NCBI GenBank assembly: GCA_947646735.1
Contig: CANTFK010000961.1
Coordinates: 798,571-862,570 of the forward strand
Direction of reading: 5' to 3'
Length of the DNA stretch: 64,000 nucleotides
From: Peronospora farinosa
Lineage: Eukaryota; Oomycota; Peronosporomycetes; Peronosporales; Peronosporaceae
Part shown: one piece after another, positions 126 to 24,976 of the stretch
Numbering within the stretch: the stretch's first letter is position 1
Layout: the number at the start of each line of letters is the position of its first letter
Program-made: the position numbers and the translations under genes
Notes under the pieces: generated by a model
What the model was told of the DNA's origin: nothing
The model's database searches: none
Seen by the model: only the letters and a program-made list of their open reading frames with translations

Positions 126-585
126 TGTAATCGGGCACCCTCCGACTATACTGATTACAGTATAGTCTACTTTCACATATTACAGTGAAAGCAGGTGCCT
201 CAATTACCTCTCTTACACAAGAGGCAGAGGAAGCTTTACTTCAAAACAAACGCTTAGAAGTAGAGGAAAAGAAAACTGTATTTAATATAGTTAACTATCT
301 TTATAAAACTAATCTGTTATAACCTATGTTAACTATATTAGACTACAACTATGTATGTTGACAACTTGCCCTCCACTCATTGCGCGCGTCCATCGGTCAT
401 TGGTCAGCGCGTTGGTTGATATGATGGCCCATATCAACCAATGAGAGGGCATCTCCAACTTCAAGGAGATCTAGGAACAATACTATAAGAAAAAGTAATA
501 TTGTCAAAATATTATTAGTTATAATAATATTTTATTGACACTTCATATAAGTGTCAATATTATGTAACGGGCTCACCCCGTTACA
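126..585 (-). repeat. Element 1 3' LTR
   Basis: This 460-bp LTR is the downstream one for the minus-strand element. It is almost entirely short inverted repeats: a 10-bp stem at 144-153/158-167, an 11-bp stem at 412-422/431-441, and terminal TGTAACGGG/CCCGTTACA arms near 563-585. It differs from the 7858-8323 copy at only a few positions, including a few extra A residues in the other copy. Confidence 0.93.
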
Positions 586-602
586 TCACCCCCCCCCTTC
601 CT
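586..602 (-). other. Element 1 polypurine tract
   Basis: Directly inside the 3' LTR the minus strand reads GGAAGGGGGGGGGGTGA. A purine run abutting the 3' LTR is the expected plus-strand primer site of an LTR retrotransposon. Equivalent tracts lie at 20617 (element 4), 28672 (element 3) and before 20161 (element 2). Confidence 0.7.
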
Positions 603-688
603 TAGCCAACAGTCACATTAGTGACTGTTTAGTGACTATGGGAAAGGAGCACTTGTTGAATTTTCTTTTATTCCAACATTTTTACGCT

Positions 689-2404
689 ATGACAAAGTCA
701 ATGCGCGTCGCTGCTAATGCAGCTAAGAGCTCGGCTGCTCGCCTATGTGCAGCCGCTACTGAGGCTTCACAGCCTCAGCCAGCAGACACTAATGTGTCTG
801 CTGGAAGGCAACATCAGCCTGCAACGCCTGTTGCAGGTTCACGTAGCGCTTCGCCACGTAAAGAGTGACCCAGAGTTAGTCGTTGACTACTCTGGTGAGT
901 CGGATGACGCATCCGACTCAAAGTCATCTCTTCCACTCCCGAGCTCTCCCCGGGGTGATACCTCGTCGTCTAATGTTACGAAGAGGGATCGTGGTACATT
1001 GAGTGAATCAATGTACCGTGAAATGTTCGGGTCGTCTAATGAATCCTTCGACTCGCCAAACGAGTCGAAGGATAGTGACTCGGGTGGGGACCGTAAGGGT
1101 GATGTCAGTGCTTCTACTGACATCAATGCTCATAGTGTCGGTACCTCTAGTGACACTATGCTCGTGGTGTCGGTACTTCTGTTGACACCACGCAGGAGGC
1201 TTTAGACCGCAACGTATTGCGTCTTGCTCCTGATCGCAAACCATGGATGCTACCCAAGCATCTGCTTGATCGTTGGTCTGGAAAGACCAACGAACGGTTC
1301 CCCATACCGTTGTTTGATGCGTCAAAGCTTAATGGCCTTGACGCCAGTGCGAAGAACTTTCGCACTGAGAACGATTATTACATCGATGTGTTTCTTGAAC
1401 ATCGATGGTATGGCCCACACAAGAAGCGTGAGGCTGACGCGTTCCTCCAATCTCGAAACGCGTTTATCACCAACGATTTAAACGTTGGGAAAGAGTCTTG
1501 GTTTCAAAGACTTTTTGCTAGCCGCAATAAGGTTGAGAAACGAAGTACGTCCGGTGCATGCTATCGTTTGCACCGGTTATCTAGAGAAGCAGGCCTGTTA
1601 TGCCTCTCTTGGGGCGACCCATGACCGGGGTGCCTGAGCACCTCGTCAAGAGCGCCTAAGGAGGCGTACCTCCTTCCTGAGCCCTGGTGGAGGGCTCGCA
1701 TCTCTTCTGAGATGCGTGAAGGGATTGCTACTTTGCAATCCATTTACGAGCGCGCTTGGCTCTAGTTTTTCGATGGTCCTTCACCATCGGGTGTCCCTTG
1801 TCGTACTGTTTGACAAGGCCGGGAACTTCGGCCATCAGTTGGGCCCGAGGTTTCCAGCTATCCGCCGAAGGCGGATAGCCACGCCACCGGACAAGATAAC
1901 TCGTCCGACGTCCCTCCACCTCGCGGTGCTTTAGTAAGCGTTCCACGAGAAAGCGCTTCCCGCCATGAGGGTCCACCAGCGGATGCGGTGGTGGAGGGAA
2001 AACACTGTCCGATTCTTTCATCGGACTTGGCTGCTGAGTTAGACGGGTTTGCCCGTGTAACTCGTGAGCTCCGTTGTGATGTTGATCATGAACGGGATAA
2101 GCGTCGCCGCTTAGAGGACATTGTGCGACAGCTTGGGTTTGACCATGAGAAGTCTCGGGCAAACAATGCTGTCGCACTATTGAAGAATGAATGGCGGCTT
2201 CATTCTCTAAGTAACGAGCTGGCGACAGCTCGTCAGGATATCGTCCAATATCATGGGAAGATCTCATCTCTACACGAAGGAGTATCGAATCTGGTTCGTG
2301 AAAACAAGGATCTGAAGGGGATTCTTGAGAGTAATGGCTATCTTCGTCGTTCGAAGAAGCCGCGTACTGAACGTACGGAAGAAGACGTCCCACGTAAAAC
2401 GTAG
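689..2404 (+). pseudogene. Antisense gene of element 1 (aORF), decayed
   Basis: The plus strand, antisense to the element, is open in pieces from ATG 689: to 868, then another frame to 1205, then 1217-1624 and 1988-2404 in one frame, with in-frame stops between. The pieces show an Ala-rich start, the motif DPELVVDY, an acidic Ser-rich stretch, a NERFPIPL motif and a long charged C-terminal coiled coil (about 1990-2330). Element 2 has DPSFVVDY and DRAFPIPV in the same order on its antisense strand, and element 3 has a VDY motif near its start, so these are homologous. The last 680 bp overlap the pol chromodomain region on the other strand. No known domain was recognised; a role as a coiled-coil accessory protein is inference. 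Confidence 0.6.
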
Positions 2405-3842
2405 GATGCGTACGCATCCTGCGTGGCAACTCGATCTTGTATGCTTTGCCTAGGCGGCGAAATACACGAAACGGGCCGCTGTACTTGGGCAACAATTTAT
2501 TGCTGCCCACGTTAGTCACTACATGTTTAGGTAGGTTTACTGTTGACAGTAAAACTAAATCACCTTCAATAAATGTCTGAGCATTTTCCCTTCCATTATT
2601 GTCTGCGTGTCGCTTTTGCTTATCCACCGCTGCTGCGATGGAGTCTTGCGCGAAACGGACTACCGCTTCACGAGTCAGCAGGAGATCCTTAGCTGACTCG
2701 TTGCTTTTGGCTGCAGTGCATTGTGAGTGCACTGCAGAGATATCGGTTACTAATTCATCGAGAACAATACTGTTCTCGTTTGTGATACCTCGAACAATGC
2801 TAATATCGTCAGCATCGTTATCAGTAAGAGCGTCATCGCTCTTACTTTCTTCCTCTTCACCGAAGTCGAATGGTACGACTTCGGTTACTTTCGCGTCGAC
2901 CATAACGTCGTCGCGTGATGAGCAAGAGCCATATTGGTTCTCGCTCGAGCGAGTTCCTCCCCCCTTTAAATTAGATTCACCCTCTACTTAGGTGGGGACA
3001 CGTGGATGGCGAAGGCCATTCACGTAGAACGGTGTATGCGTCGTGGAGGCATGCACGGAGTTGTTGATGGCGAATTCGACCATCGACAAGAACTCACTCC
3101 AACTCGTAAACGAGTGGACGTACCCTCGAAGAATCATTTCGAGGACGCGATTGGCGCGTTCAGTCTGACCATCAATTTATGGATGGTCAGAAGTAGACAT
3201 TGTGAGCCGTGTTCCAAGTGTTTGGAACACGGAACGCCAAAACTCAGCCGTGAACCGGGGGTCCCTATCGGACACAAGTTCACGGGGTAAACCGTGCAAT
3301 CGAAAGATTGTATCGATAAACACTCGAGCACAGCCCTCTGCTGTGATCGACTCAGGTACAGCAACAAGATGTACCATCTTGCTTAACCTGTCTACAAACA
3401 CGAGAATACCATTATTTCCGTGAGCGTCTTTGGGAAACCCAAAGACAAAGTCCATTGATACGAACTCCCAGCACTCTGCCGGAACAGGTAGAGGCTGCAA
3501 TGGTGCACGGAGTGAAGGACTAGGCTTCACTCGTTGACACACCTCGCAAGCACGCACGTACTTGCGCACAAACTTATACTGGAGTGGCCAGTAAAAGTCG
3601 CGACTGACCGTGAGGTAAGTCTTCTCACGGCCGCGATGCCCACTTATTGGTGCATCGTGACATTCAAACATGATCCGTAACCTGAGATCATGTTGTGGCG
3701 GTACAACGACACGAGGCGTGTCGTTGTTGACGGCTGTGTAGTACAGTAAGCCGTTCCGCTGGGTGTATCGATCGAGAGAAGATCGATACATGGCAGGCAA
3801 GCGCTTCTTAGCTTGCGTGGATGGGTCCTTGAGATACTCCAT
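1728..3842 (-). pseudogene. Element 1 pol: integrase and C-terminal chromodomain
   Basis: Integrase inserts the cDNA. From the N-terminus there is an HHCC zinc finger (ECHDAPISGH...CEVCQ), the core with a first Asp in SMDFVFG and second in SDRDPRF, then the third-acid motif around 3170, reading HP-stop-IDGQTER. The stop is CAA to TAA, at 3174-3176. Another in-frame TAA follows RVPT near 2990. The C-terminal part from 2903 has the RMRTHPTFYVGRL integrase tail and ends in a chromodomain (FLVERLLKHR...YLVRWRGYP). Chromodomains steer chromoviral integration to marked chromatin. The last 680 bp overlap the antisense gene. The domain order is secure, but function is lost through stops. Confidence 0.85.
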
Positions 3843-3894
3843 CAGGCGTACAAGATCATTATCTTGTGCGCATGCCCTTCTAATGTCGTCGAGC

Positions 3895-5235
3895 TTAGCT
3901 CGACGACAAGACGCTGGTACTCAGCGTGGCGACAGTGGTGTTCACATCACTGTCGGATTGCACAGTCGGCTCTAGGTCAGGCCGACGTGAGAGAGCATCG
4001 GCGACGACGTTAAGTCGTCCCGGCTTATACTCCACGGAGAAGTTGTACTCCGCGAAGAATGACAACCATCTCGCCATTCGTTGCGAGAGTTGTGGACTAT
4101 TTACAGCCGTGCGTAGTGACTCATGGTCTGTATATACAATGAACGGTCTATCTCCTAAAAGATAGACGCGAAACTTAGCCAGTGCATACTTCATGGCAAG
4201 GAGTTCCTTGTCATGCACCGGATAATTGCGCTCGGCCGGTTGCAGCTGACGCGATTGATAACAGACGAAACGCTCTGCGCCGTCTGTATCATATTGCATC
4301 AGTGCGCAGCCGATTGCAAAATCACTTGCGTCACAGACCACATGAAATGGTCTATCTTGATCGGCAATCGCCAATACTGGCGATTGCATCAAGCTTTGCT
4401 TGATGCGTTCAAAGGAACGCTGACAGTCAGCGTTCCAATTCCACTTTACATTTTTCTTGAGTAAACAAGAAAGATGTACTGTCATTTCGGCGTAATTGCG
4501 CGAGTACTTGTGCAAGTACGCCGCTAGCCCAAGGAACTTCCTTAGCCCCTTGACATCGACTGGCACTGGCCATTCGGTGATCGCCTTGATCTTCTCTGGA
4601 TCAGGGCGTACGCCGTTCTTGCCGACGATGCACCGAAGAAGTGGTATTTCGCTAGCTACGAATATACACTTCTTGAGGTTGGCGTACAACTTATGCTCGC
4701 ACATAAGTGTAAAAACCTTACGGACGTGGAGTCTATGGACTTCCACGTCTGTTTTCCCGTCCATAGCTCGACTATGGACGAACACAAAATCGAAGTAACT
4801 TGGTGCGAATTCGCGCACCGGTCTCAATAGATGTGAAACACATCTATTGAATGTGGCTGGTGCATTACTGAGCCCTTGCGGCATCACCAACCATTCCCAG
4901 ATCATACCACTGGGAGTGCTCACTGCTGTGTACGGGATGTCCCGTTCACGCATTAGGATCTGATAGAAACCATCCATCAAATCCATGGACGAAAAGATGG
5001 TACTATTAGACATACCATCTATGATTAGGTCCTTTCTCAATATCGGCGTTTGTGCCAGTATCGTTGCAGCGTTCAACTTGTTGAACGCGTGTACTATCCT
5101 CCACCCTCCTGTGGCCTTGCGCACACAGAAGGTCGGAGAGCTGTGAGGTGAAGTTGACTCCCTCACATGGCCCGCTGATAGGCGATCGGCAAAGAACTTG
5201 TCGATCGCCTCGACCTGTTCCCGAGGCAGGGGTCA
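3895..5235 (-). pseudogene. Element 1 pol: reverse transcriptase and RNase H
   Basis: RT copies the element RNA and RNase H removes the template. The region has the RT start (SSPTFCVRKATGGWRIVHAF), the palm DLMDGFYQI, then the active-site segment reading YFDFVFVHS where active relatives have YFDD, so one catalytic Asp is lost. RNase H follows with VVCDASDFAIGCAL, DKELLAMKYAL and YTDHESL. Just upstream, near 5230-5240, there is a frameshift relative to the protease segment and a TGG-to-TGA stop in the conserved QWPLP motif. This copy cannot make active enzyme. Confidence 0.88.
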
Positions 5236-6644
5236 CTGCTTCATGACACATTATTTTGTGCCAGAACAAGGTCGATTTCGTGTCGAGTACCTTTATCCTT
5301 AGGCAACTCGCACGGAACGGATTCAGGGAATACATCCTTGAATTCGGCCAAATCCTTGTACAAAGGATTTGACTTCAGCGACTCCCAGGATTGCGATGTA
5401 TATCTCTCAATCCGAGTCTTCTCATCAAGGACACTCTCGTCCATTGATGAGCTGCTGAGAACCCGTTCGTTCTCGGCAAAAAATGTTGCTGACCGAATTT
5501 CAGTCATGTACTCGTCCTCTGCGACGAGCACACAGATCTGCTTGGCTTTGCCACTACTCAGACCACGCAAGAACCTTTTAGGTTCTAGCGTAGGCAACTG
5601 AGTTATCTCCGAAGTTAACTTCGGAGGCGCGATCATATCAAGCGTATAAGCGCCTACGTTTGACCCGTCATTAACCAAGACGTTCAACGTCTCGGTTACT
5701 TCCTGGGGACTTATCTTCTCAGGGCACTGGGGACTTATTCCCTCAGTGATTATTTCCTGGGGAGTTATTCCCGCAGGCTCGATGGAACTTGTTCCATCGA
5801 CTTCCTCTAGCTGTGGTGGCGCAACCACAGCGAGATCCTCTACGATCAACTCTCCAGTTGATCTAGGATTACCGTGTTGCCGCTTCTGGGCAACCGGTTT
5901 ACTCTTCGGTGAATGCTGCCCTCTAGGCGAGCATTCATGTCCCAGTCCACTCGACTTATTCGAGTGGTGGACCTTCGGCGCTGCCTGTGCTTGTGCACAG
6001 CCACCGGCAGCTTGCTCCACAGCGTGATTGTCTGTCACGCTGAGCTCTTGTGCAGTCGTACTAACGACCGAACCACAAGTGAGGCCATCGCACTCACTCG
6101 TAGTACATTCACACGTTTGTGAACGCTCCAAGACGTTCATCAGATGGCCATCTGATGAACAAGCGGCAGGCATCTTCACGGTTTGATGCTGCCAGCTGAC
6201 CCATGGCTCGTACCTTCTGAGCCATGGTAATCCTAGGATGACATCAAATTTGTCATCCAGGTCAAGTACGATGAAATCATCATCGTACTTTTTGCCTTCA
6301 AGCGTGTAGTGAATTCCCACTACACGTTTCTTTACGGATACGCCAGTTGCAAGGCGCACCATCATCCTCGTTGAAGTGGTCTCGCGCTCAACATATATGA
6401 GCCTACGATCATCTAGCGATTGGCGTCGAACAAAGTTGTTTGACGCCTCCTAATCAACTAGGGCGCGAAGTGACATGTTCTTTGTCACTTCGATCTTCAA
6501 TGTGATGAGGGATACCTCATCACTGGGAACGGCAACACACAGTGACTGTGTGTTGGGAGCAACCTTCGTCAAGAGTCCCGCGAACTCTCTTGACGTTGCT
6601 GGATCAGTAGGGCGCTCCGCCCCTACTGACCCCGACCGTTTTTT
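5236..6644 (-). pseudogene. Element 1 pol: aspartic protease and repeat-rich spacer
   Basis: The pol frame is open in the -1 frame relative to gag from the slippery heptamer at 6638-6644. The retropepsin active site should read LVDSGAS; here it reads LVD-stop-EAS near 6450, so the catalytic triplet is destroyed by a nonsense and a missense change. Downstream the DVILGLPWL motif of the second half of the protease is intact. About 250 residues of low-complexity spacer with repeated PQE/SPQ units separate it from RT. The segment ends in KGTRHEIDLV, just before the RT domain and a frameshift. Confidence 0.8.
6605..6644 (-). promoter_or_regulatory. Putative -1 frameshift signal at gag end, element 1
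   Basis: On the minus strand the gag frame reads tcA AAA AAC, the canonical -1 slippery heptamer (6638-6644), then a 9-nt spacer (6629-6637), then an 8-bp perfect stem CAGTAGGG (6621-6628) pairing with CCCTACTG (complement of 6605-6612). The gag stop TAG (6623-6625) lies in the stem. The pol frame is -1 relative to gag and open across the junction. The same layout occurs at 14353-14392, 62662-62700 and 34023-34065. Confidence 0.7.
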
Positions 6645-7810
6645 GATGGTCCACCACGTTGTTGCGATTTCGCAGCAACGTGGGACCCACGTCTCTGTCC
6701 CTTCTTGGCAGACGGTCGATCGTCACTCCCAGTGTTACGAGACACTGGTCGTGGGGCACTACACTCATAAGCGTAGTGGCCCAACTTCTGACAGCGATTG
6801 CACTTTTGCAATCGCTTGTACCCTGGAGAGCGAGGTCGCTCGCTCTCTACATAGAAGAGGTCCATTGGTTCTGGACCTCCGCCCTCCTGTCGTCTCGGTG
6901 GACGATAGGACCCCGAGTGGACGTGAGCCTGTTGCAGGCTAAAGTCCTCCTGTTCCGCTGCAGAGATCGCTTGGTCCAGCAATTCTAGTTCCTAGCGGAA
7001 CAGGTGGGTCTTGACAGGACCATCTGTCAGACCCTTGATGAACACAGTAACCTGCGTGTGTTTCTCGATTGGGTTCAGTACGATACAGCTAACGAGGTAT
7101 CGTACGTGTTGGGCGTAAGCAGCGTGTATATCACGCTTACCCTGTTTCAAATCCAGGAGCTCAGCCCGAGCCCTGAATTCGGCGCGAGGCGGTTCAAACG
7201 TGTTTTTGAGCCGCGCCTTGAAGACGTCATACGTTGGGAAAACGTATGGGTCGTGCAGTTTGAGCCCTAAGGCCCAAGCTTTGGCACGTCCTCCCAAGTT
7301 CGACATGGCGAACTTGACCATCATCGCATCGTCATCGATGCGACAAGCCTCAATGGCATCGTCGAGCTCGACGAAACCTCTCAACAAGGAGTCGCTTTCG
7401 ACTGCCTTGTACTTGGAGACATCAATCTTCAAGGACTCGGGTCGACGTGTATACGTCGACCCGGCAGCAACAGCACTAGCCTGCTGTTGTCTCAACAGTT
7501 CAGACTGTTGAGCACCCTGCTGCATCAACAAGTCAGCTTGTTGAGCGCCTTGTTCTCTCAACAGTTCAACCTGTTGAGAACCTTGCTTCTCTAGCAAGGT
7601 GAGTTTCTTTACAACTTCGTCAAGTTCATGTTGTATGAACTTGGCGATGGTTGCATGTTGGTCGTCTCCGCTAAGAGAGAGCAACATGGCACCAACGGAA
7701 GGGTTGCCGATGGTTTCAGCCATACGATGAACCGCATTCCATTCGAGGTCACTCAAATGGTGGAAATCATCACGCGTTGCGTGATGACGTTCATCACCCG
7801 CTGATTTCAT
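6623..7810 (-). pseudogene. Element 1 gag (capsid and zinc knuckle)
   Basis: Gag forms the particle that packages element RNA. The first ATG is at 7810, 33 nt past the primer site. The N-terminal part has coiled-coil repeats (QQVELLREQGAQQ-like, about 7500-7620), then the retrotransposon gag core (FKARLKNTFEPPRAEFRARA). One in-frame TAG at 6992-6994 interrupts it; the frame then continues to the CCHC zinc knuckle CNRCQKLGHYAYEC (6761-6802) and stops at TAG 6623. With that single stop removed the frame is continuous, so the lesion is a simple nonsense change. Confidence 0.88.
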
Positions 7811-7842
7811 AGCGGGTGGTGCGGTGGTCGCTGAACGGACCA

Positions 7843-7855
7843 CGAAGTGCTACCA
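7843..7855 (-). other. Element 1 primer binding site
   Basis: Two bases inside the 5' LTR the minus strand reads TGGTAGCACTTCG. The first 8 bases, TGGTAGCA, are complementary to the 3' end of eukaryotic initiator methionine tRNAs (ending UGCUACCA). Elements 2, 3, 4 and 5 use TGGTAGC starts at the same place, so all share one primer type. Confidence 0.65.
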
Positions 7856-7857
7856 GG

Positions 7858-8323
7858 TGTAATCGGGAACCCTCCGACTATACTGATTACAGTATAGTCT
7901 ACTTTCACATATTACAGTGAAAGCAGGTGCCTCAATTACCTCTCTTACACAAGAGGCAGAGGAAGCTTTACTTCAAAACAAACGCTTAGAAGTAGAGGAA
8001 AAGAAAAACTGTATTTAATATAGTTAACTATCTTTATAAAAAAAACTAATCTGTTATAACCTATGTTAACTATATTAGACTAACAACTATGTATGTTGAC
8101 AACTTGCCCTCCACTCATTGCGCGCGTCCATCGGTCATTGGTCAGCGCGTTGGTTGATATGATGGCCCATATCAACCAATGAGAGGGCATCTCCAACTTC
8201 AAGGAGATCTAGGAACAATATTATAAGAAAAGGTAATATTGTCAAAATATTATTTGTTATAATAATATTTTATTGACACTTCATATAAGTGTCTATATTA
8301 TGTAACGGGCTCACCCCGTTACA
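7858..8323 (-). repeat. Element 1 5' LTR
   Basis: This 466-bp LTR is nearly identical to 126-585. It should contain the element promoter and polyadenylation signal, but no TATA box can be assigned with confidence. It has the same chain of inverted repeats as the other LTR and is followed by the AGGGT target duplication at 8324-8328. Confidence 0.93.
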
Positions 8324-12626: not shown

Positions 12627-12642
12627 GTGAGGTAAGAGTATT

Positions 12643-13244
12643 TGTAACAGGCATTTAGTTATACTTAAACATAAAGTAATATACTTAATGTTTGGTCTAA
12701 AAGTATCCATGATTACTTTTGACCTGTCACTTGGGTGCGATACACAAACGTGATCCACCCTCGTGAATGTGATATCCATTTATGGATTTACATGGGAAAG
12801 GATGACGCTAGTTGAAGCTAGGCATCGTGACGTCTCAGAAGGACGTCATTAGCGAGCTTAAATCTATATTTAAGTTCATGCGACAGGATACGCTTCTAAA
12901 GAGTCGCGTATCCGATCTTTATACATATGTAGCTAATCAGTAGTTTAGTTAAGTTTATATTTAATTATAATTCATCAAATATAGCTTAGTATTGAATTTG
13001 CTAAATCGAAAGCACCGCGCACGAGAAGCCGAAAAGCTTCTACGTGACGTCGGTGACTTCTTGTTAAAAAGTTCGTTGCACTCTCGCTTAAGCGAGAAGC
13101 ATATGGTGGTACGACTACTTAAGCAGTCGACCAACCTCACATCCACCCTCGCACGCGAAGGTAAGACGGTCTAACCGCTTCCTCGCTTGTGCTGTAGATG
13201 TGCGCTAAGTAGCACGAGGCATTTCGTAGAAGTGCCCGTCTACA
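12643..13244 (+). repeat. Element 2 5' LTR
   Basis: This 602-bp LTR runs from TGTAACAGG to CGTCTACA. It aligns over nearly its full length with 60976-61553, with only scattered differences. It contains paired hairpin arms such as GACGTC/GACGTC blocks near 12829-12847 and CTCGCTTAAGCGAG near 13082. The primer site follows after two bases. Confidence 0.88.
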
Positions 13245-13246
13245 CT

Positions 13247-13258
13247 TGGTAGCGCTAG
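13247..13258 (+). other. Element 2 primer binding site
   Basis: TGGTAGCGCTAG starts two bases after the LTR end. It matches the primer sites of the other elements in its first seven bases; element 5 has TGGTAGCACTCG at the same place. Confidence 0.6.
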
Positions 13259-13303
13259 TAGTCCTTCCCACGATCCGTCTCTTCGAGCGTGCGTGTGGTT
13301 GAG

Positions 13304-14374
13304 ATGGTCCTCTAAATGGACTGGAGTGACTTCCCTCACCTCCCCCAACACCATAGAAAGTTGGTGAAGCATATGCGTAGAGACTTGGTGAACAAGTCCT
13401 GGCTAACCTCTTGCATTGTCCTCCTGAGCAATACGTTGCTCAGTTGAAGCAATTTGAGGCGTTTGTGTTTGGACAGCGCAGAAATGCGTCCGAGTAAACA
13501 GCCAAGCCACCGCTGAGTCCATCACTAAGACTCAGGATGAGCTTAGGCTTGAGCAGGCACGTAATGAGGCGCTCAACAGAACTGTTGAGACGCTCTCTGC
13601 CCGGCCTGCTCAACCGAGGCCCATTCGGATGGACCCTCCGAAGTTCGATGGAACTAGCCCTCACACGATTGTTCACTGGACATCTACAGTTGAGCAATGT
13701 AGAGTGGTGCAGCTCATCGAAGACGACACCAGAATGGTGTCGTATGCCATGTCCAACTTGCGTGGCAAAGCGTCAGAGTGGGCATACTCTGCGCTGATGG
13801 TAAATGCTGATGCATTCCATCATGGGCGATCTTGAAAACAAAGATTCGCGCCATGTACCAGCCACCTAACAACGAAGTGTTGCTTATGGCGAGCTTCTTT
13901 GGAGCACGACAGGCGAAACGCTCTCTGCAATAATTTGAGCAGGACATGCGTTCGCTGTCGGCGTCCATTAATGGGAAACCGATACCGGAACGAATCAAGG
14001 TGGCCACGTTCATGAATGGACTTAGGCACGACCCATCGCGTCAGGACCTTTTTAGAAAGGTGCCAGCGACGATGGAAGACATTGCCTTAGTTGAGGAGCA
14101 ATCCTGCAGCAGCGCCTCGGCTACATCCTATTACATGCCGTCGTCTGAGAAGTCTGATGCCACTCCTATGGAGTTAGGCGATGCAGATGTAATCTGCTAC
14201 AAGTGCGGCAAGCGAGGCCATATGATGGCTCGCTGCTATGCCAAGGTAGCTGCTGGTGCTAAGGCCGCCAGCAAAAAGGCTTCTTACTCGAAGGGACGTG
14301 CGAAAAATCAGCGTGCACGACGCACGGGTTCAGCACCTGCCCAAGATGGGTCGGGAAATGCGGGAGCGCAGTAG
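13304..14374 (+). pseudogene. Element 2 gag
   Basis: Gag begins at ATG 13304, but the fourth codon is TAA where element 5 has an open codon. Several frameshifts follow, with coding traces at 13629-13835 (MDPPKFDGTSPHTIVHWTST) and 13946-14374. The last part has NGLRHDPSRQDLFRKVP, DIALVEEQS and a complete CCHC knuckle CYKCGKRGHMMARC at 14195-14236. It ends at TAG 14372, inside the frameshift hairpin. The encoded capsid would package element RNA, but this copy is broken. Confidence 0.83.
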
Positions 14375-14392
14375 GGGCGGGATGCCCTACTG
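14353..14392 (+). promoter_or_regulatory. Putative -1 frameshift signal at gag end, element 2
   Basis: The gag frame reads tcG GGA AAT, a -1 slippery heptamer (14353-14359), then 9 nt, then a stem CAGTAGGG (14369-14376), 8-nt loop, CCCTACTG (14385-14392). The gag stop TAG 14372-14374 is in the stem. The protease frame is -1 relative to gag. In element 2 that frame later meets a TAG at 14416 not present in element 5. Confidence 0.68.
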
Positions 14393-14418
14393 TCGCGGAC
14401 TCTGAAGCTACCCTTTAG

Positions 14419-15240
14419 ATCAGAGTTATCGAACAAATGGATAGCATAGTCCCTGAGGTTCCGAAAGGTCGGACCTCAAACCTTTTGGTCTATAGCGCTC
14501 GAGTACGAGGCTATGACCAAGTGATGACCCTTCTCGTGGATTCGGGTGCATCACAAAACTTTGTGAAACTCGCGGCTCTGAAAAAGAGGCCGGCGAGTTA
14601 TGAGTCGCTTTGCCAGGATGGCAAGCGAGAAGAGGCGATCGTTCGTTTAGAGAACGGCGCGCTCGTTAAATCGGAGGAAGTTCAAATTGAACTCGCCTCC
14701 AGTTTCAGTGACTTCTCTTGTAAGGAGAAGTTCACAGTGCTAGGTATGGAAAGTCTGTATGACCTCATCCTAGGCATGCCTTGGTTGGCTAAACACCAAC
14801 CATGGATAGACTGGCGTACACGCACAGTCGCTAGCTCTACGCAAGACACCGGAAAGGATGTGCTCTTGCGAGAGGCTTATGTGGCTGATGCTGTTTCCAA
14901 CACAGTCGAGGGTGCGATGACGGTATGTCAATCAACACCAGGAACAACCCAGCTCGAAAGGAGTGGTGTAGTTGGAAGTGCACGGACAGAAAGTCAGGTG
15001 ACACATATTCCTACCCAGGTCGAAAAGACTGGTGTAGTGAATGGGGCGATGACAGGTGGTCATGCATCCAATAGTCCTGCACAGAGCCGAGAGCCTGTGG
15101 CATATGATGGTGGGGTGACAGCAAGTCAAGCGCCACAAGAACCGACACAGAGTCATGAGCCTGGTGCGGTTGGAAGGAGTGCGTTGGCTAATACAGCAAC
15201 GACACCTTCTCCCAAGTCAAAGGTCGTGGTGACTCGATGA
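14419..15240 (+). pseudogene. Element 2 pol: aspartic protease and spacer
   Basis: The retropepsin motif LLVDSGASQNFV is intact, followed by the flap and YDLILGMPWLAKHQPWIDW. A repeat-rich spacer of about 100 residues follows. The frame ends at TGA 15238-15240 (CGA TGA ACG), and the same frame continues after it into the RT region. Element 5 has the same TGA at 63549-63551, so the stop predates the copies or is decoded by readthrough. The protease itself looks functional. Confidence 0.82.
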
Positions 15241-16555
15241 ACGAGCACCAGACATATTAAGACGATCAAGGGCACGTCGAAACGAGTGACCTTTGGATCG
15301 GTCCCGGCTTATGAGTACGTACCTACAAACGAGTTGTTCGAGGCAGTCGAAGGCAAGATGCCGGAGGCATCCTCAGTTGAGGTGCTCCAATTTGTCTTGG
15401 CATCTGCCGAGGAGATAGTAAATCTCTCGGAGATGACGTGGGATCTGCTCCTGTTCGAATTAAAGGAAGGAAAGATCCAAGAGATAGTCGCACCAGTTCC
15501 AGAAGAGAACGTGGTGGACTGTTGCTCTTCATCAACAATGGACGAGAGCATCTTGGAGACCGACAAAAAGAAACGGTTTGCTGCTCAAGGCTGGGATGCC
15601 TTGAAGGACAGCCCGTTCTATGATGCTCTGTGGAAACACCGTGATGTGTTTCCAGCAGAAGTGCCGAGCCGCCTACCGGTCGATAGGGGCATCAGTCACG
15701 ATATTGGCCTGAAACATGGCACCAAGTATTGTGTGAACAGGCAATGGCCGTTGCCGAAGGAACAAGTCGATTACATCGATGAGTTCTTCGACAAACGAGC
15801 CAAGGCGGGACATGTACGTGAGAGCAAGTCGCCTCACTGCAGCCCGACCTTCTGTGTGCGTAAAGCAACAGGTGGATGGCGCGTGGTTCATGCTTATAAT
15901 AAGCTGAACAACGGCCACCGTTCCGGCTCAAACGCCGATCCCGCGGAAAGATGTTTTGTTGAACTCCATGGGAAAGTCAACTATCTTTTCCACGTTGGAT
16001 CTGAAGGATGGCTACTATCAGGTTCTCATGCGAGATACCGATGTAGCCAAAACGGCAGTAAGCACCCCAAGCGGTATGCTGTGGGAGTGGCTTGTGATGC
16101 CACAAGGGTTTATAAATGCTCCAGCAACATTTAACCGAGTAGTGGCTCACGTGATGCGTCAGCACCGTGCCTACGCGCCCCATTACTTTGACGACGTGTT
16201 CGTGCATAGTAGGGCGTAGGACGGTCTGAGCGCAATAGAGTCGCACAAGCGTCATTTATACGCTGTATTGCAGACTCTGGGTGACGCCCAATTATACGTG
16301 AACTTGCAAAAGTGCGTAATAGGGGTCCCCGAGATACCGGTACTAGGCTGCATCGTAGGTGCACATAGTGTACGATCAGGCCCAAATAAAGTAAAGGCTA
16401 TCAAATTATGGCCAGTCTCTCGACACGTGAAGGATCTGCGCCAAATCCTTGGGCTCGCTAATTACTTGCATAAGTACAGCAAGAGTTATGCGGAGCAGAC
16501 TAAGCCATTGTCTGACCTTTTGAAAAAGGATACAGAATGGACTTGGTCAAAGTAA
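15241..16555 (+). pseudogene. Element 2 pol: reverse transcriptase
   Basis: After the TGA the frame is open with a spacer, then SPTFCVRKATGGWRVVHAYNKL; a frameshift near 15910 shifts to LDLKDGYYQVLMRD and the intact active site HYFDDVFVHSRA (about 16183-16218), ended by TAG at 16217. The thumb/connection follows in another frame (LQKCVIGVPEIPVLGCIVG, LRQILGLANYLHKYS) to a TAA at 16555. The catalytic YFDD is conserved, but three breaks remove activity. Confidence 0.83.
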
Positions 16556-17244
16556 CAAGAAGATGCGTTCACTTCAGTGAAGCAATCTCTTGTAGAGGCA
16601 CCGGTCTTGGCATTGCCATACGCGGATAAGCCCTTAGCGTCGTCTGCGATGCAAGCAATTTTGCAATCGGCAGCGCGCTCATGCAAAAGGATGACAACGG
16701 CGTTGACCGTGTCATATCTTATCCGTCTCGGCTTTTAAAAGCTGCAGAGCTGAATTACCCTGTGCATGACAAGGAGCTACTTTCAATTAAGTATTCCCTT
16801 GTAAAGTTTCGGGTGCACCTCTTGGGCACCGAATCTTTTGTGGTTTATACCGATCACGAATCACTGCGGACCGCTATAAATTCACCGCACCTCTCGCCGA
16901 GAATGGCGAGACGGCTAACATTCTTCACTGAATTAAATTTCAAAGTTGAATATAAGCCGGGTAAGTCGAATGTCTTGGCTGACGCGTTATCGCGCAGACC
17001 AGAATTCGAGGCAAGACACCAGGATAGTGTGTCTCGTGCGAAAGCACAAGGTGAGTCGTCAACATTGGCAGCCATGAAGTCCAACCATGTGACGAGCTCA
17101 ATGGCCTCCCATGTAAAGGATTGCTACAGTCAGGACGAACATTGTGGCCTACTGTTGGACCATTTTGGTGGACGAAAGGTTACCCTTCCGTCGCACCTCA
17201 AAGCGAAACTAAATCGTTTTAGTTACAGTGATGGCCTGTTATAG
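16556..17244 (+). pseudogene. Element 2 pol: RNase H domain
   Basis: RNase H motifs appear in order: a damaged first Asp region (SSAMQANFAIGSALMQ-like, near 16640), YPVHDKELLSIKYSLVKFR, VVYTDHESLRTAINS, and the tether YKPGKSNVLADALSRRPEF. The open frame from 16681 ends at TAG 17242. It degrades the RNA strand during reverse transcription. Confidence 0.8.
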
Positions 17245-19190
17245 CATCAACTGTCACCCTGTGATCCCTTGAGAATCTATGTCCCTCATGACACAGATCT
17301 CAAGCTGATGATACTTCACGAGTGCCATGATGCGCCATCTGGTGGGCATCTGGTTCGTGCAAAGACATTCTTACGAGTACCAGAGGAATTTTGGTAGCCC
17401 CACCTATATCGGTGGGTGGCCAACTATATTCGCTCTTACGAAGAGTGTCAGCGCATTAAGCCTGCACCTTCGGCAGTGCGCCACTGAAGCCACTGCCGAT
17501 TCCAACTGAATGTTGGAAGTCGGTCAGTTTGGACTTCATGTTTGGCTTATCTCCTGACAATAATTGCAGGACGGGGCTCGTTGTCTTTGTAGACAGACTG
17601 AGCAAGATGATGCATTTGGCACCATATAGCACCAAGATATCACGAAAAGAGGCTGCCCTCTTGTTTCTGGATCACGTGTATTGACTACATGGGATGCCCG
17701 AGTCCATAGTATCGGACCTGGATCCGCGTTTTACGTCGGGGTTTTGGCGACATGTGTTTGAGCTGCTGGGTAGCAAGCTCCACATGTCAACCGCTGATCA
17801 TCCCCAAACTGATGGCCAAACCAAACGGGCCAATCGAGTCGTGGCGGATGCGTTGCGTACAGTAGCGACTCTCAAAGAATGGAGCAAGCAATTGCCATTC
17901 GTGGAGTTCGCTATTAATAACAGTGTTCACGCCAGTACGGGTGAAACACCGTTTTACATTAACAAACTGCGTCATCCTCGAACGCCAGTCTCGTTTGTGC
18001 GCAGCCCAAGTCTTAGTGAAGTAGGGCCCCTCACTTCGCTCGGTGCGAATGCCAAAAAGGGCCAAGGTTGCCCTAGTGACACTGCTAATTTAGCAGTGGT
18101 CACGACACCTATAGATGTCACAGAGGAGGCACGGCAAGAAATGCCAGTGCTCCTTGATGATGACACTATAGTGTTATCAACAGCGTCGACCCATGAACGA
18201 CCTCTTGGAAGCGTAATCGGCGAGCTGGATGCTAAAAGCGTGAGCGAAGCTCAGCGCTTTGTGGATGAGCGATTAGCCATCCCACGTAAAGTCCGTGACG
18301 CGATGGCAAGTGCACAGGACAAGCAAAAACAATATGCAGACCAGCATTGTCGCAAAAACAATGAACACTTTAGTGCGGGGGACAAAGTGCTATTAAGTAC
18401 TGCTACCCTACCTAAACATGCAATTTCTGTACTACCTGGTGGTACTACTAAGCTATTTCCCCGATTCATTGGGCCCTTTACAGTAATTGAAGAAGTTGGA
18501 GACCTAGACTATAAGCTCACTCTCCCACCGTATATGAAGACGCACCCCGTATTTTACGTGGGTCGTCGAAAACGGTATGTTGATCCAGAAGAGATCACAT
18601 ATCCAAATCGGTCTAATGATACCGATGGTGACGTCGACTGTGAGTCGAGCGTCGCGACCGATCAGGCGACGAGGAAGCCGATAGGCTCCCCGTATACGAA
18701 GGAGGCGATAGAGGACTCGGCGATCGAGGAGGACTCCGCGCTTGACGAGGGTCTCTCATCACCAGTCGCTCTAAAATGTACAAACGGGTCTTCAGGCGGT
18801 CATACCTCTGACGGTCTCTCGCCCTCACATCGCGCAGATCCGAGGTCAGTCGCGAGACTTGACTCTCGAGATCTGCCACCTGCCTCTTCAGCGCAGCAGA
18901 CTCAGCCTGCGACTGAACAGCAGCAGGATAGGCAGCCGCGAGTAGGTGGGCGTAATCTCCGCTCCTATCGGGCGCCACCTGTGCTGGTGGACACGGAAGG
19001 GAATAAGCGCTTCCTTGTTGGAAGGCTGTTGGCCCACCGGTTTGTGAAGCGAAAGCTCCAAATCCTGGTCCAGTGGAAGGGTTACCCAACGAGCTTTGAC
19101 TCATGGGAGCCTGTGGACGCTTTGCGCGTTGACGTGCCTGTTCTGGTGGATGCTTATGTGAAGCAGCACCAGCTGCCGTCTTTCTGCTAA
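17245..19190 (+). pseudogene. Element 2 pol: integrase and chromodomain
   Basis: The zinc-finger half (HECHDAPSGGH...YEECQRIKPAPS) spans 17308-17470 with stops and a lost finger Cys. The core resumes with VFVDRLSKMMHLAP and, from 17694, an open 498-residue frame: SDLDPRFTSGFWR, then HPQTDGQTKRANR, where the catalytic Glu of DDE is Lys. The tail has MKTHPVFYVGR and a C-terminal chromodomain (VDTEGNKRFLVGRLLAHR, LVQWKGYPTSFDSWEP). Positions 18613-19190 also encode the antisense gene on the other strand. Confidence 0.85.
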
Positions 19191-20056
19191 GTCCGGATGG
19201 ACTAGCAGAAGAAGCGTGGCGAGATTCAATTGGGGGTCGCTTACCACCTGAAATTTCATGCGCACGCTTCATGGCGAAGCTGATTAGCTGCGACCGTTTT
19301 TTTGTTGCTTCTTCCTGCAACGTTACACGGCGCCGAAGTTCAGTTTCATATTCGTCGGCTGTTTCGTTAGAACGCAGCACGACTGGAATTGGGAAAGCAC
19401 GATCAAGTGCTTTGCCCTGCTTTTTCCACAAAGGAAAACGCTATAAAATTTATGAGCGTCAATAGTTGCACGCTGCAAAAGCGCTGCGCTAGACCCATCC
19501 GAGTTCATCCACTCAGATGGAGGTGGCATTGGTGGCAATCCACCACTCACGTAGCCGCCCTCGCGACGGCGGGCTAGTGAGGCCGACGGTGTACTTGGTG
19601 GAGCTTTAAGCTCACACTCACCTGAGGCTGACTCTCCATTATGGATTGTCAAGACATCAGCCTGAGAAGTTACATCTGACTGAGTCGCGACTACTTCTTT
19701 CGAAGTAGCGTGCTCAGTCTTAGTCGCTGCGCTCGTAGGCGCAGACGACGGGGTTTACCTTCGCTTGTAGGAAGCATAGACGCTCCCTCAAGGACGGGTG
19801 CCTCAAATGATGGGGACATATGTCCCATCAATGCACTATGCACATCGCCACTTTGGGGTGATGGCAATGGCGTAGTCTCATTGTAGTCTACAACGAAAGA
19901 TGGATCTTCATCCACATTGTGGTGAGATGAAAGATTCGTCTTAGTGCCTGACGCACTTTGCGACGGCTTCGAATCATCGCGGCGCGTGCGCTTAGTGCTG
20001 AACTGCATGGGCGCCTTTGCAGGCGACCTATCAGCCTTACCACGTTTCGGTAGCAT
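18613..20056 (-). pseudogene. Antisense gene of element 2 (aORF)
   Basis: On the minus strand, from ATG 20056, three open pieces follow: 20056-19691 (basic start, then DPSFVVDYNETTPLPSP), 19652-19323 (acidic/Ser-rich, WMNSDGSS) and 19431-18613, a 272-residue frame with DRAFPIPVVLRSNETADEYE, a Pro/Ser region and a C-terminal coiled coil (LKRQVADLESQVSRLTSDLR) ending in an SR-rich tail. The pieces are in different frames, so one or two frameshifts have occurred. VVDY and FPIP motifs match element 1. The C-terminal 577 bp overlap the integrase-chromodomain frame on the other strand. The function is unknown. Confidence 0.62.
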
Positions 20057-20149
20057 GAGTACTGAGCAGACTAAAGCGGCTCGTTTATAGCGGCTTCAAG
20101 TCTCTCTGGCTTCTAGGCGATGTTTTACAAAATGTAAAAATTGCTCTAA

Positions 20150-20160
20150 TAAAGGGATGG
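20150..20160 (+). other. Element 2 polypurine tract
   Basis: AAAGGGATGG directly precedes the 3' LTR start TGTAACAGGG, as expected for the plus-strand primer of a plus-strand element. Confidence 0.55.
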
Positions 20161-20276
20161 TGTAACAGGGCATCTAGTTACACGTAAACATTTATTACTA
20201 CTTAATGTAAGGTCTACAAGTATCTATAATTACTTTTGACCTGCGATACACAAATGTGATCCATTCCCGTGAACGA
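20161..20276 (+). repeat. Element 2 3' LTR, truncated by element 4
   Basis: The first 116 bp of an LTR (TGTAACAGGGCATCTAGTTA onward) are present, then element 4 begins. Homology to 12643-12770 is clear but with many substitutions and a missing 10-base block (TCACTTGGGT). The remaining 480 bp of the LTR are not found after element 4 at 27302, so part was lost. Confidence 0.75.
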
Positions 20277-20616
20277 TGTAACGGGGCTAGAACGTACCGT
20301 CACTAGCTTACACGCGCGCTTGAGAAAGACTTAAGCCCAAGTATTAGGTATTAAGTAAATTTAACTCTTTTTATATTTTGGTTTTAATTCGTACTAATTA
20401 CGAAGACTTTTAGTCGTAATCAATACGACAGTGTTCCCGCCTTTCGGGAACCACACAATTTCAGGCTAATTTATCATTGGTCCATATTGGGACTTTAGGC
20501 CCCAATAATAAACCAATAATAAATTGCCACGCTGTGCCCGCTATTCGGGCCCAGCACCTGTCTACATATGCAATTGTTTATTTGTGTTAACTATGTGTGT
20601 AATGTATCCCATTACA
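20277..20616 (-). repeat. Element 4 3' LTR
   Basis: The LTR runs from TGTAACGGGG to CCCATTACA, 340 bp. It contains paired arms such as CCCGCCTTTCGGG near 20430, TTATTGGT-type arms near 20480-20530 and GCCCGCTATTCGGGC near 20536. Its partner is 26962-27301. Confidence 0.92.
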
Positions 20617-20632
20617 TCACCCCCTTTTCAAG
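20617..20632 (-). other. Element 4 polypurine tract
   Basis: The minus strand reads CTTGAAAAGGGGGTGA against the 3' LTR, equivalent in place and sequence to the tract of element 1. Confidence 0.65.
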
Positions 20633-20674
20633 ACAGCACGCACCAACCATGAGTGCTTAACTGTTTAAACTTTA

Positions 20675-21964
20675 ATGCTCACAAACGAACAAGCAATGCC
20701 CGAACACACGACTCCGAACGATGCAGCACTCCCAAGAACCATTAGCGGGAGTGCAACCCTTAACATTATGGCGCAACAACTCACTCCTTGGGCGCTGTAT
20801 GACTTGTCCGGAGCTCGTGATCCGGACTCACTAGAAACGATGCAGGACTATTTCCGGCGTTTTCGTAAACTGCGAGGAAAGATTCTTGATGGGATCGGAT
20901 ACAAAGCACTGCAACGTTCTTGGTGCGCCTTCATAAGACGTTGGAATCGATTGCTCGAGGATGGTAGCAGCTTCCAGCTGTGGCTTGCCAATCGAGAGAA
21001 ACTTCGCGCCTATCACTTCATCGGCGCGCTACGCGAAAGGTTGTGTGATAATGCTTGGAATGAGGACCGCCTCTGTTTCGTTCATGTCAATGAAGAATGT
21101 CAGTCTTGTGACTCGAATCCACGCCCAGCTCATGACGAATGGAGACGACACATCGCTGAGTGTCCACTCAGTGAACGCGAACAAAGTTGGATAGAGAAGT
21201 ATAAGCGAAGTCTGAGCAAACAGAGGACCTTAATTATTCGTGGTACACCTTGCTGGCAACATCACTCTCGACAGCGGAGTCAATCTCCGCGAAATAATCG
21301 ACGCAGGGAAGCAAACGTTCGCCTGCCCGTCCTGCTGCGCGGTTCTCGCCTCGCAGTCGTGGTGATATATATTCACTTTCATCACGAAAGCATTCGCGCT
21401 CGCGCTCGCATCGGAATAGCCAGACTCCACGGTCTCGTATGGCTGAACAACATCTGGAACGCCGCGAAGAAGAGATCTCCCACGTATCCTGCACGGGTGA
21501 AAACCCAATCCGGTGTATACAATAACTGCGTGCGAATGGCACCGCGCGCTTTTCATGAGCCGACTGTGTCACTGCTCGAGGAGGGTCCTCATGAACCACA
21601 ATACGATCCACAATCTAGCGTACCTGTCCTTCTGCATCCACAAGCGGTGGTGGGCCCTCGCGTCGGTAATGCTGGAGTCCTGGTTGACCAGGACGATGTT
21701 GATCAGGCCGTAAACAAGGCTTCCAATGCTCAGCTGGAAGCTGAGGCTGCCCTTGAGCGTGCTGCACAGGCGGAGAGAACCGCAAGTAAATATCCGGCAG
21801 TCGAACCGCGAAATGCTCGAACAGATGAGGTTTCGAGAATGCCAGGTCCTTGGACGTGCACAGACGGCATCGCAACCGCGCCCGATGTCATCGATGCGTC
21901 GAGTACGGCGAGGAGGCCGATCGACCTACGGACCCTTGAAGCCGGCATCGGAGCCAAGCCGTGA
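20675..21964 (+). CDS. Antisense gene of element 4 (aORF), intact 429-residue frame
   Basis: A single uninterrupted frame of 429 codons starts 59 bp inside the 3' LTR and runs antisense to the element. The N-terminal half (about residues 50-130) is helical with many aromatic and Arg residues (DYFRRFRKLRG, RRWNRLLEDG). A Cys/His cluster CFVHVNEECQSC...HDEWRRHIAEC near residues 134-168 could bind zinc. A basic stretch follows, and the C-terminal part (about residues 348-385) is an Ala/Glu coiled coil (LEAEAALERAAQAERTA). The last 530 bp overlap the chromodomain remnant on the minus strand. It remained open while pol in the same copy was destroyed, which suggests selection or chance. No known family was recognised. 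Confidence 0.55.
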   Translation: MLTNEQAMPEHTTPNDAALPRTISGSATLNIMAQQLTPWALYDLSGARDPDSLETMQDYFRRFRKLRGKILDGIGYKALQRSWCAFIRRWNRLLEDGSSFQLWLANREKLRAYHFIGALRERLCDNAWNEDRLCFVHVNEECQSCDSNPRPAHDEWRRHIAECPLSEREQSWIEKYKRSLSKQRTLIIRGTPCWQHHSRQRSQSPRNNRRREANVRLPVLLRGSRLAVVVIYIHFHHESIRARARIGIARLHGLVWLNNIWNAAKKRSPTYPARVKTQSGVYNNCVRMAPRAFHEPTVSLLEEGPHEPQYDPQSSVPVLLHPQAVVGPRVGNAGVLVDQDDVDQAVNKASNAQLEAEAALERAAQAERTASKYPAVEPRNARTDEVSRMPGPWTCTDGIATAPDVIDASSTARRPIDLRTLEAGIGAKP

Positions 21965-24320: not shown

Positions 24321-24976
24321 TGTTTTGAAGGTGAGCTTGAAAATTACTAAGGTTAACCTCAGCGCGAATATGGACAAAGATGTCGTCGAAGTAGCTCAGA
24401 GCAAATTTCCAAAGTGTTTTCAGCACATAACCCGCACTGCAGCGGCCTTCAAAAAATGCTTCAATAGCTTCGACTTGATCTCGAGGCAACGGCTCACAGA
24501 ATACTTCGAACCTGGCACGAGATCAATTTCGTGCCGAATACCACGGTCAGCAGGAGGTTCAGCCGGCATCTTGTCCGGTAACACGTCTGCGTACTCACGA
24601 GCAATGTCGTGAAAAGAGTTATCAGACTCTCGCAGAGCCTGCCGTGACTGTGATAGAAACCATTCCTTTTTACGCGCTGACTTTGGCTCAGCGCTTGGAG
24701 GACGCGCCATATATGCTCCTCGTTCGCCACAGTAATCACCCCGTTGGTGATTAGACAGTTCCTCCCTTAAGGTCATGAATGAAGTGGCGAACCGCAGTCA
24801 GGTATAAAACCATCACCCTGTCGAGGCACTGAATGTCCTTATTAATAATTTCCGGATACACTAGACGGGAGTATCCTAAACTTGACCGTCGTCACTTGAT
24901 GCGGGATCTCCTTCTCGCCGCCGTAAAGCCGTGTGAGAGCCCCTGCTCAACCACAATACGCCCATGTGGGAACCTC

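Follow-up and report, generated by a model that had tools for sequence, protein, structure and literature searches.

Ty3/gypsy-type retrotransposons in the oomycete Peronospora farinosa are rich in short, perfect hairpins, and one family is saturated with them through coding and non-coding sequence alike. We analyzed a stretch of 64,000 nucleotides (the window; contig CANTFK010000961.1 of assembly GCA_947646735.1, positions 798,571 to 862,570 of the forward strand), near the start of which lies element 1, a long terminal repeat (LTR) retrotransposon whose density of inverted repeats had been pointed out from the letters alone. The hairpin phenomenon is confirmed and extends wider than first noted. 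Our reading, to which we assign a probability of roughly 0.45, is that gypsy-type LTR elements are under selection, while active, as chains of short perfect hairpins over their whole length, with a hairpin size specific to each family.

Hairpin density in element 1 and its family

Element 1 belongs to a family that we call A, and its parts are as follows.

126..8323, minus strand: element 1 (family A), degenerate Ty3/gypsy LTR retrotransposon with chromodomain, from its LTR pair, open reading frames (ORFs), Pfam matches and hairpin scans
7858..8323, minus strand: 5' LTR, direct repeat with 126-585; 7 stems of at least 7 bp
6992..7843, minus strand: gag ORF (Retrotrans_gag), Pfam
5241..6365, minus strand: aspartic protease region (RVP_2), Pfam
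3895..5166, minus strand: reverse transcriptase and RNase H, Pfam
3177..3842, minus strand: integrase (H2C2 zinc finger and core), Pfam
1728..2903, minus strand: integrase C-terminal SH3-like domain and chromodomain, Pfam
586..1727, minus strand: non-coding spacer, where hairpins are densest: 19 stems of at least 7 bp (16.6 per kb), including eight named hairpins at 897-1407
126..585, minus strand: 3' LTR, direct repeat; 4 stems of at least 7 bp

On the minus strand the Pfam order is gag, protease, reverse transcriptase, RNase H and integrase, which is the Ty3/gypsy order. The two LTRs are direct repeats with 98-99% identity across two aligned pieces, and the open frames of at least 200 aa are broken into five pieces. 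A chromodomain (PF00385) places element 1 in a chromovirus-like branch and also occurs in three further gypsy families of this genome, B, C and D; none was found in a fourth, B2, where the retrieved sequence ends inside the ORF. Family B holds gag, reverse transcriptase, RNase H, integrase and chromodomain in a single open frame of 2,209 aa. The 900-1400 piece of element 1 has 180 candidate places in the 46.9-Mb genome; among the 40 of these 180 that were scored, the window's own included, the 39 others share 95-97% identity with it. The named proteins nearest to the element 1 reverse transcriptase come from Peronospora effusa (95% identity over 70% of the query), P. matthiolae (78%) and Phytophthora (about 70%).

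A scan for perfect stems with loops of 0-15 nt, low-complexity arms dropped, found 91 stems of at least 8 bp and 61 of at least 9 bp in element 1. Four first-order Markov versions of 126-8323 averaged 1.5 and 0, and five Markov versions of the whole 64 kb averaged 14.2 and 2.6. Counted without overlap (loops of 2-12 nt), the stems of at least 7 bp number 108, take up 23% of the bases and follow each other at a mean spacing of 76 nt. Per kb, they number 8.7 and 15.0 in the two LTRs and 12.4 in coding sequence, next to the 16.6 of the spacer. Stems are thus found in LTRs, spacer and coding sequence alike, and the original prediction was right both in calling the LTR and pol hairpin-dense and in holding that a feature running along the whole element is not one regulatory site. 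All 18 hairpins that it had named, with stems of 8-17 bp, are present at their coordinates; their lengths also held, except at 897-919, 1101-1124 and 1271-1292, where each stem is 1 bp longer. Hairpins referred to below, or among the longest, include:

1043..1073: 13-bp perfect stem, loop of 5; scan
3703..3727: 11-bp stem, loop of 3; loop inverted in 3 of 30 copies (L013, L023, L026)
3884..3908: 12-bp stem in pol; scan
5779..5800: 10-bp stem, loop of 2; inverted loops on two backgrounds, TT (L032, L037) and CT (L028)
5947..5967: 8-bp stem, loop of 5; loop inverted in L020
6135..6160: perfect palindrome with 13-bp arms (12-bp stem, loop of 2); scan

A microRNA or a hairpin of the miniature inverted-repeat transposable element type is one long hairpin with a stem of about 20 bp or more. 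No single hairpin of this kind was found in element 1, whose stems end at 13 bp and whose arm sequences vary between hairpins.

The signal recurs in other copies of the family and is lost on shuffling. Three long-frame copies of 1,280-1,289 codons (L039, L040, L041) carry 42, 45 and 44 stems of at least 8 bp, compared to 1.2-1.6 in synonymous-codon shuffles. For the 1,289-codon frame of L040 we also used 20 strict shuffles that keep the protein, codon counts and dinucleotide counts, a control of the kind that had been proposed at the outset: the frame has 45 stems of at least 8 bp compared to 2.6, and 56 of at least 7 bp, where the shuffles average 6.4 and never exceed 11. Its fold energy lies 20 kcal/mol per 150 nt below that of synonymous shuffles (z -35.7 sense, -37.1 antisense).

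These controls bear on the possibility that the hairpins are an artefact of composition, codon use, repeats or assembly. In its favor, family C is inflated by a tandem repeat that is itself made of hairpins, but enrichment persists outside this 87-bp repeat, with z=8.2 and 14.6 on its two sides. Together with the loss of signal in shuffles that preserve protein, codons and dinucleotides, and with the presence of 18-35 stems of at least 9 bp in 4.3 kb in 30/30 family A pol copies, this makes an artefact extremely improbable. The repeat, each unit of which strings together short perfect hairpins, lies at 33118-33378 in the window's family C member (element 3) and at 697-1236 of the L053 ORF, inside the open frame.

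Distribution among element classes

All five gypsy families surveyed in the genome were enriched. Stems of at least 7 bp with loops of 3-6 nt numbered 33 compared to 1.7 expected in A, 22 compared to 2.4 in B, 17 compared to 1.8 in B2, 6 compared to 1.5 in C, and 12 compared to 1.5 in D. Among five Copia ORFs, scored by their 5-6-bp stems, enrichment was mild in L060 and L061 (z=3.0 each); the remaining three had z values of 0.9, 1.0 and -0.3. Copia fold-energy z values, sense and antisense, were -6.8/-8.9 for L060, -2.5/-2.7 for L061 and -1.7/-3.0, -1.1/-0.7 and -1.1/-2.2 for the others.

Hairpins were at chance level in three ORFs of long interspersed nuclear elements (LINEs), in two Helitron ORFs, which are short (556 and 658 aa), and in nine ORFs of the host part of the window. 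The single Mutator-like element (MULE) ORF, of 303 aa, had no stem of at least 7 bp and z=1.4 for 5-6-bp stems. PiggyBac gave no match in this genome or any control genome and hence no control value. No relative was found in the viral contig collection searched. A genome contig collection yielded one gypsy-like contig, L077, with weak enrichment (22 compared to 7.7 stems of at least 7 bp, fold-energy z -5.4/-3.4, and z 1.7 for 5-6-bp stems). Its gypsy-like ORF has 2,869 codons, and the contig, filed under a marine Phycisphaerae metagenome-assembled genome, is perhaps a eukaryotic contaminant.

Hairpin size

The families differ in the hairpin size that is most in excess: stems of 8-10 bp with loops of 4-7 nt in A, 8-9 bp in B, 8 bp in B2, 4-7 bp in D, and 4-6 bp with loops of at most 6 nt in C. 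With loops of 3-8 nt, exact stem lengths from 6 to 12 bp occur 33, 16, 29, 23, 19, 8 and 3 times in family A, and none is longer. At the same loop range, family B has 10 and 11 stems at 8 and 9 bp, and B2 has 11 at 8 bp. The excess in family D is at stems of 4-7 bp. Family C has 82 stems of exactly 5 bp compared to 24 expected and few beyond 6 bp, and its copy with an open frame, L053, carries hairpins of 5-6 bp. We considered whether families A and B share homologous hairpins and rejected this, as the pair positions mostly differ.

Loop sizes were also restricted. In L040, with both LTRs counted, loops of stems of at least 8 bp peak at 4 nt (31), followed by 5 (18) and 6 and 7 (11 each), and the stem count nears background beyond loops of about 15 nt. 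In family C the loop sizes drop sharply after 6 nt. The family A peak at 4-5 nt and the sharp cut in family C together indicate that these are physical hairpins.

Pairing type and strand symmetry

A folded sense RNA tolerates G.U pairs, so we compared G.U with A.C, its counterpart on the opposite strand. Helices of at least 8 pairs with exactly one odd pair contained 21 G.U and 29 A.C across families A-D. The fixed mismatches in near-perfect family A helices (9 G.U, 15 A.C, 8 other) are consistent with transition-biased decay. The first mismatch beyond the stem was G.U in 43 cases, A.C in 38 and other in 167 in five gypsy ORFs and one Copia ORF, and shuffles gave similar values. As a positive control, Escherichia coli 16S and 23S rRNA yielded 46 G.U-containing and 25 A.C-containing helices of at least 6 pairs. 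Fold energies were likewise symmetric, with antisense z more negative than sense in 8 of 9 LTR ORFs (sign test p=0.04; B2 was not folded).

Since G.U pairs show no excess over A.C and the two strands fold to the same degree, folding of the sense RNA alone does not explain the hairpins. This bears on a second suggestion of the original prediction, selection for structured RNA, taken here as selection on the sense genomic RNA (for packaging or stability), of the sort seen as genome-scale ordered RNA structure (GORS) in some RNA viruses. The fold-energy excess runs through the whole element, coding and non-coding, and stems are constrained relative to loops, both as such selection would have it. 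Against it stand the lack of tolerance for G.U over A.C, unlike in the E. coli rRNA scanned in the same way, the antisense z values below the sense values in 8 of those 9 ORFs, and the finding, given below, that shared variants of the kind that mainly hurts the antisense fold do less damage than private ones. The part of the suggestion that invokes selection on stems holds up, while a role for sense RNA alone is disfavored and improbable.

A preference for G.U among shared variants was also considered as a sign of sense-RNA selection and set aside. The counts were 9 G.U, 4 A.C and 5 other (7, 3 and 6 in the clean region of the alignment; 4, 1 and 4 with neighboring copies collapsed), and the G.U/A.C ratio, for all columns and for the clean region, was not significantly different from the control. 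Pairing of third with third codon positions was depleted in family A (10/56, p=0.015) but not in B (13/40), with p=0.08 for five ORFs pooled, and codon register does not separate selection from mutation models.

The same strand symmetry would be expected under evasion of RNA silencing, in which transcripts of both strands would carry stems below the length that Dicer can use, and these stems would make it harder for duplexes to form and for guides to bind. This would account for Watson-Crick-only pairing on both strands and for the limit on stem length. The LINEs and DNA elements tested in this genome lack the hairpin excess, however, and we consider silencing evasion quite improbable.

Variation among copies of family A

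We aligned 30 pol-region copies of family A (L009-L038), used the first 3,950 columns and dropped columns with fewer than 27 copies. Private variants, found in one copy and presumably mostly post-insertion decay, occurred at 0.18 per column in stems, 0.21 in loops and 0.21 elsewhere. For variants in at least three copies, the 910 stem columns contained 16, the 284 loop columns 21 and the 2,498 other columns 72, with p=1.2e-5 between stems and loops and p=3e-4 between loops and other columns.

Some family A copies that closely resemble each other are grouped within 7-27 kb of a single contig (L013/L023/L026 on contig C189, L032/L037, L015/L016 and L011/L034), and the spacing of same-contig neighbors is partly about one element length, as expected of tandem or nested arrays. 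In addition, the 3' part of L036 looks recombinant with element-2-like sequence, and an internal deletion in L014 joins pol to the 3' part. Because of the neighboring copies on one contig, some variant sharing may be local duplication. When only one copy was kept per cluster less than 100 kb apart on one contig (24 of 30 kept, six dropped), variants in at least three copies numbered 9 in 910 stem, 14 in 284 loop and 37 in 2,501 other columns (p=1.4e-4 for stems against loops, p=4e-4 for loops against other columns). Private variants in this collapsed set stood at 0.18, 0.21 and 0.21, with p=0.04 for stem vs other.

Shared variants were also milder in their effect on folding. From private to two-copy to variants in three or more copies, the mean change in folding free energy (ddG) was 1.52, 1.24 and 0.93 for the sense strand and 1.48, 1.31 and 0.90 for the antisense strand; the collapsed set gave 1.47, 1.20 and 0.62, and 1.49, 1.17 and 0.52 (p=0.027 and 0.0014). 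For C>T and A>G variants, which mainly hurt the antisense fold, antisense ddG was 2.30 among private and 1.46 among shared variants (p=0.010; collapsed 2.23 and 1.23, p=0.005). There was no excess of stabilizing variants among the shared ones. With the copy that defined the stems excluded, diversity was 0.031-0.034 in stems of at least 7-9 bp compared to 0.037-0.039; an apparently strong conservation of stems relative to the window copy (0.019 vs 0.047) was rejected as mostly ascertainment. The shared-variant pattern is best read as what purifying selection on both strands in the active phase would leave.

Several points weigh against selection on the hairpins and should temper this interpretation. 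The clear contrast is with loops, as stem vs other was weak for variants in at least three copies (p=0.07) and weaker in the collapsed set (p=0.32); this may be because "other" includes weaker helices. The shared:private ratio for inner stem pairs compared to the control gave p=0.054, and stems of at least 10 bp were not less diverse than the rest (0.041 vs 0.036). The Fisher tests took variants as columns, and the pairs were chosen as perfect in at least five copies, a slight bias against common variants. The survey covers one genome, with one ORF per gypsy family; the hairpins of families A and B mostly sit at different positions; and the MULE ORF reached an energy z of -3.1 sense and -0.4 antisense without any 7-bp stem. 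A mutational process that repairs stems would likewise lower shared variants in stems.

Template switching

The original prediction had also offered foldback template switching by reverse transcriptase, and we found that template switching does act on the hairpins. In a scan for clustered changes that match the reverse complement of their neighborhood, the six best rows were exact loop inversions, in which the loop is reverse-complemented and the arms are unchanged. A scan aimed at such inversions showed them at five hairpins in at least six events among the 30 copies. It tested 185 overlapping hairpin sites, and 3,700 random windows matched in length yielded 19. Several of its 14 inversion rows were nested, and three weak ones were left out (two 2-base loops with one copy on either side and one single-base difference). 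The carriers of the inversion at 3703..3727 (L013, L023, L026) have 20 variants in common that are theirs alone and sit within 17 kb of a single contig, and the carriers of the TT-loop inversion at 5779..5800 (L032, L037) lie 26 kb apart on one contig. As multi-copy inversions are confined to close copies on the same contig, local duplication may have spread them. Each inversion may have arisen in or outside the replication cycle, by reverse transcriptase or by host replication.

Perfecting of arms, the other part of that proposal, found no support. The inversions were rare, with about 6 events compared to about 950 variant alleles (point changes) in the same region. Covariation of arms between copies, which had been put forward as a check, was almost absent: two-sided changes in the clean region came to one inner and one edge pair. 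We rejected 24 apparent compensatory changes, nearly all of which came from misaligned, recombinant or deleted 3' parts of L014, L031, L035 and L036. Neither arm was more diverged than the other relative to other families, a comparison of low power at 54% nucleotide identity. At conserved outgroup residues, family A departed in 3/76 stem and 5/266 other columns (p=0.38).

Stem codons of family A were less conserved than its other codons (0.460 vs 0.549 compared to B, 0.394 vs 0.513 compared to D, 0.488 vs 0.517 compared to C), and lower against 14/14 outgroup proteins, with z from -0.4 to -3.3. In family B they were not lower for stems of at least 8 bp (0.551 vs 0.525) and slightly lower for at least 7 bp (0.500 vs 0.531). 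Those of families C and D were less conserved, on few codons (20 and 34).

These observations bear on a mutational ratchet, the main rival. Under it, imperfect inverted repeats would be made perfect through template switching by the reverse transcriptase that the element encodes, leaving a functionless by-product filtered only by protein needs. It would fit the perfect, strand-symmetric Watson-Crick stems, their restriction to LTR elements among those tested, the denser hairpins of the spacer relative to coding sequence, and the lower conservation of stem codons against all 14 outgroup proteins; exact loop inversions are, moreover, a known mark of template switching according to passages of PMC8604942. 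The scarcity of inversions relative to point variants, none of them placed in the replication cycle, argues against it, as do the near absence of two-sided changes once misaligned 3' parts are dropped, the lack of an excess of stabilizing shared variants, and the equally diverged arms (at low power). Also against it, three LINEs, which likewise use reverse transcriptase, show no excess of hairpins, and stem lengths are capped by an upper limit. We regard the ratchet as unlikely, although a serious competitor. Template switching is real but minor; it yields some loop inversions and appears not to maintain the stems.

Possible selection on both strands and its basis

In our preferred reading, selection on both strands of the LTR element's nucleic acid during replication would keep the hairpins. 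G.U is good on one RNA strand and becomes A.C on the other, and since it is not accepted, the selected thing would be DNA, or sense and antisense RNA together. The selected form could thus be the two cDNA strands, each single-stranded within the particle, or sense plus antisense RNA. As a first guess, hairpins might keep the long single strands that arise during reverse transcription in a compact, closed state. LINEs reverse-transcribe at their target and, copying there, would not need compact single-stranded intermediates. A more specific version, a strand-symmetric "hairpin code," seems possible but doubtful: the hairpin size of each family would be set by the need for both cDNA strands to fold in the particle, matched to the family's own Gag or reverse transcriptase.

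Other elements and host sequence in the window

Fold-energy excess, in kcal/mol per 150 nt relative to dinucleotide shuffles, was computed for plus and minus strands across the window. It amounted to -16.8/-17.2 in element 1, and elsewhere as listed.

12641..20276, plus strand: element-2 family, gypsy, ends approximate; excess -9.4/-10.7
60975..64000, plus strand: element-2 family, second copy, cut by the window end; excess -9.9/-11.9
20277..27261, no strand assigned: element 4, presumed LTR element with direct repeats at 20277-20576 and 26962-27261; excess -3.1/-3.0
28316..35787, minus strand: element 3, gypsy family C, ends from direct repeats; excess -5.0/-5.0 over 27262-35787
41001..60000, no strand assigned: host part, used as control; hairpins at chance, excess -0.3/-0.2

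The other elements were enriched in stems of at least 8 bp (10 compared to 1.25 expected, 12 to 2.5, 11 to 1.75 and 6 to 0.25) and also by fold energy. That further families share the feature was therefore well judged, although the single hairpins cited for them, several of 8-9 bp, are no proof on their own. Host sequence was correctly said to lack the feature, as far as the window goes: 41-60 kb has 6 stems of at least 8 bp and 2 of at least 9 bp (expected 4.5 and 1.0), 36-41 kb has 0 and 0, and the non-element stretches 8324-12640, 36-41 kb and 41-60 kb show an excess between -0.3 and +0.7.

The single ORF of element 4 that was scanned gave no Pfam match. At 25874-25910 this element carries a 17-bp perfect stem with a 3-nt loop, which exceeds every other stem of at least 9 bp listed there. 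The host part has an isolated 21-bp perfect stem with a 3-nt loop at 41831-41875, with no second copy in the window at up to 3 mismatches. An AAGA microsatellite of about 180 bp (12452-12634) adjoins element 2. A peptidase M13-type ORF at 37039-40368 contains a degenerate repeat of about 51-54 nt at 37314-37935, and two 404-aa ORFs in the host part are unrelated.

Significance and comparison with known systems

The effect in family A is very large, at z of about -36 relative to synonymous shuffles. Its recurrence in all five gypsy families, mostly with a different hairpin size, and its absence in the host ORFs, LINEs and Helitrons tested point to a step of LTR replication that shapes the whole sequence. 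Structures of single-stranded retroelement intermediates become testable from sequence, and codon use and substitution rates in hairpin-rich elements should not be taken as neutral. If true, a hairpin code would constrain retroelement genomes in a way distinct both from protein coding and from RNA structure as usually understood.

In its domain set (gag, protease, reverse transcriptase, RNase H, integrase and chromodomain), element 1 matches the Ty3/gypsy chromodomain elements of Peronosporales such as Phytophthora and Peronospora. Among the best 5-20 matches from lists of up to 4,795 open-licence papers, titles and abstract openings contain no description of hairpin saturation of LTR elements. 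The word stems "oomycet" and "stramenop" are absent from the text of an inverted-repeat survey of 118,019 genomes (PMC13155455). Passages of PMC11381356 describe Ty1 and Ty3 RNA as A-rich, with well-folded regions in up to 30%, and HIV-1 RNA as also A-rich, with about 40%. These genomic RNAs resemble the present case as LTR-element RNA with well-folded regions; they differ in that those passages describe no dense perfect hairpins.

Mutation by template switching offers a second parallel. Passages of PMC8604942 report spacer inversions in yeast by DNA polymerase template switching at perfect inverted repeats, and those of PMC8794818 report that template switching can create and maintain hairpins, as in rRNA; template switching in SARS-CoV-2 is the subject of PMC12619124, as far as its passages go. 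The likeness to the yeast and rRNA cases lies in short perfect inverted repeats in coding sequence and in loop inversion. In the passages on those systems the events are isolated, whereas each element here has more than 100 hairpins, with few inversions and no arm conversion seen.

The GORS of RNA viruses is a fold-energy excess of the whole genome over its shuffled versions, coding sequence included. The LTR elements resemble it in an excess that is spread across the element and takes in coding sequence too. They differ from GORS in having discrete perfect hairpins, with no tolerance of G.U, equal strands and a hairpin size specific to the family.

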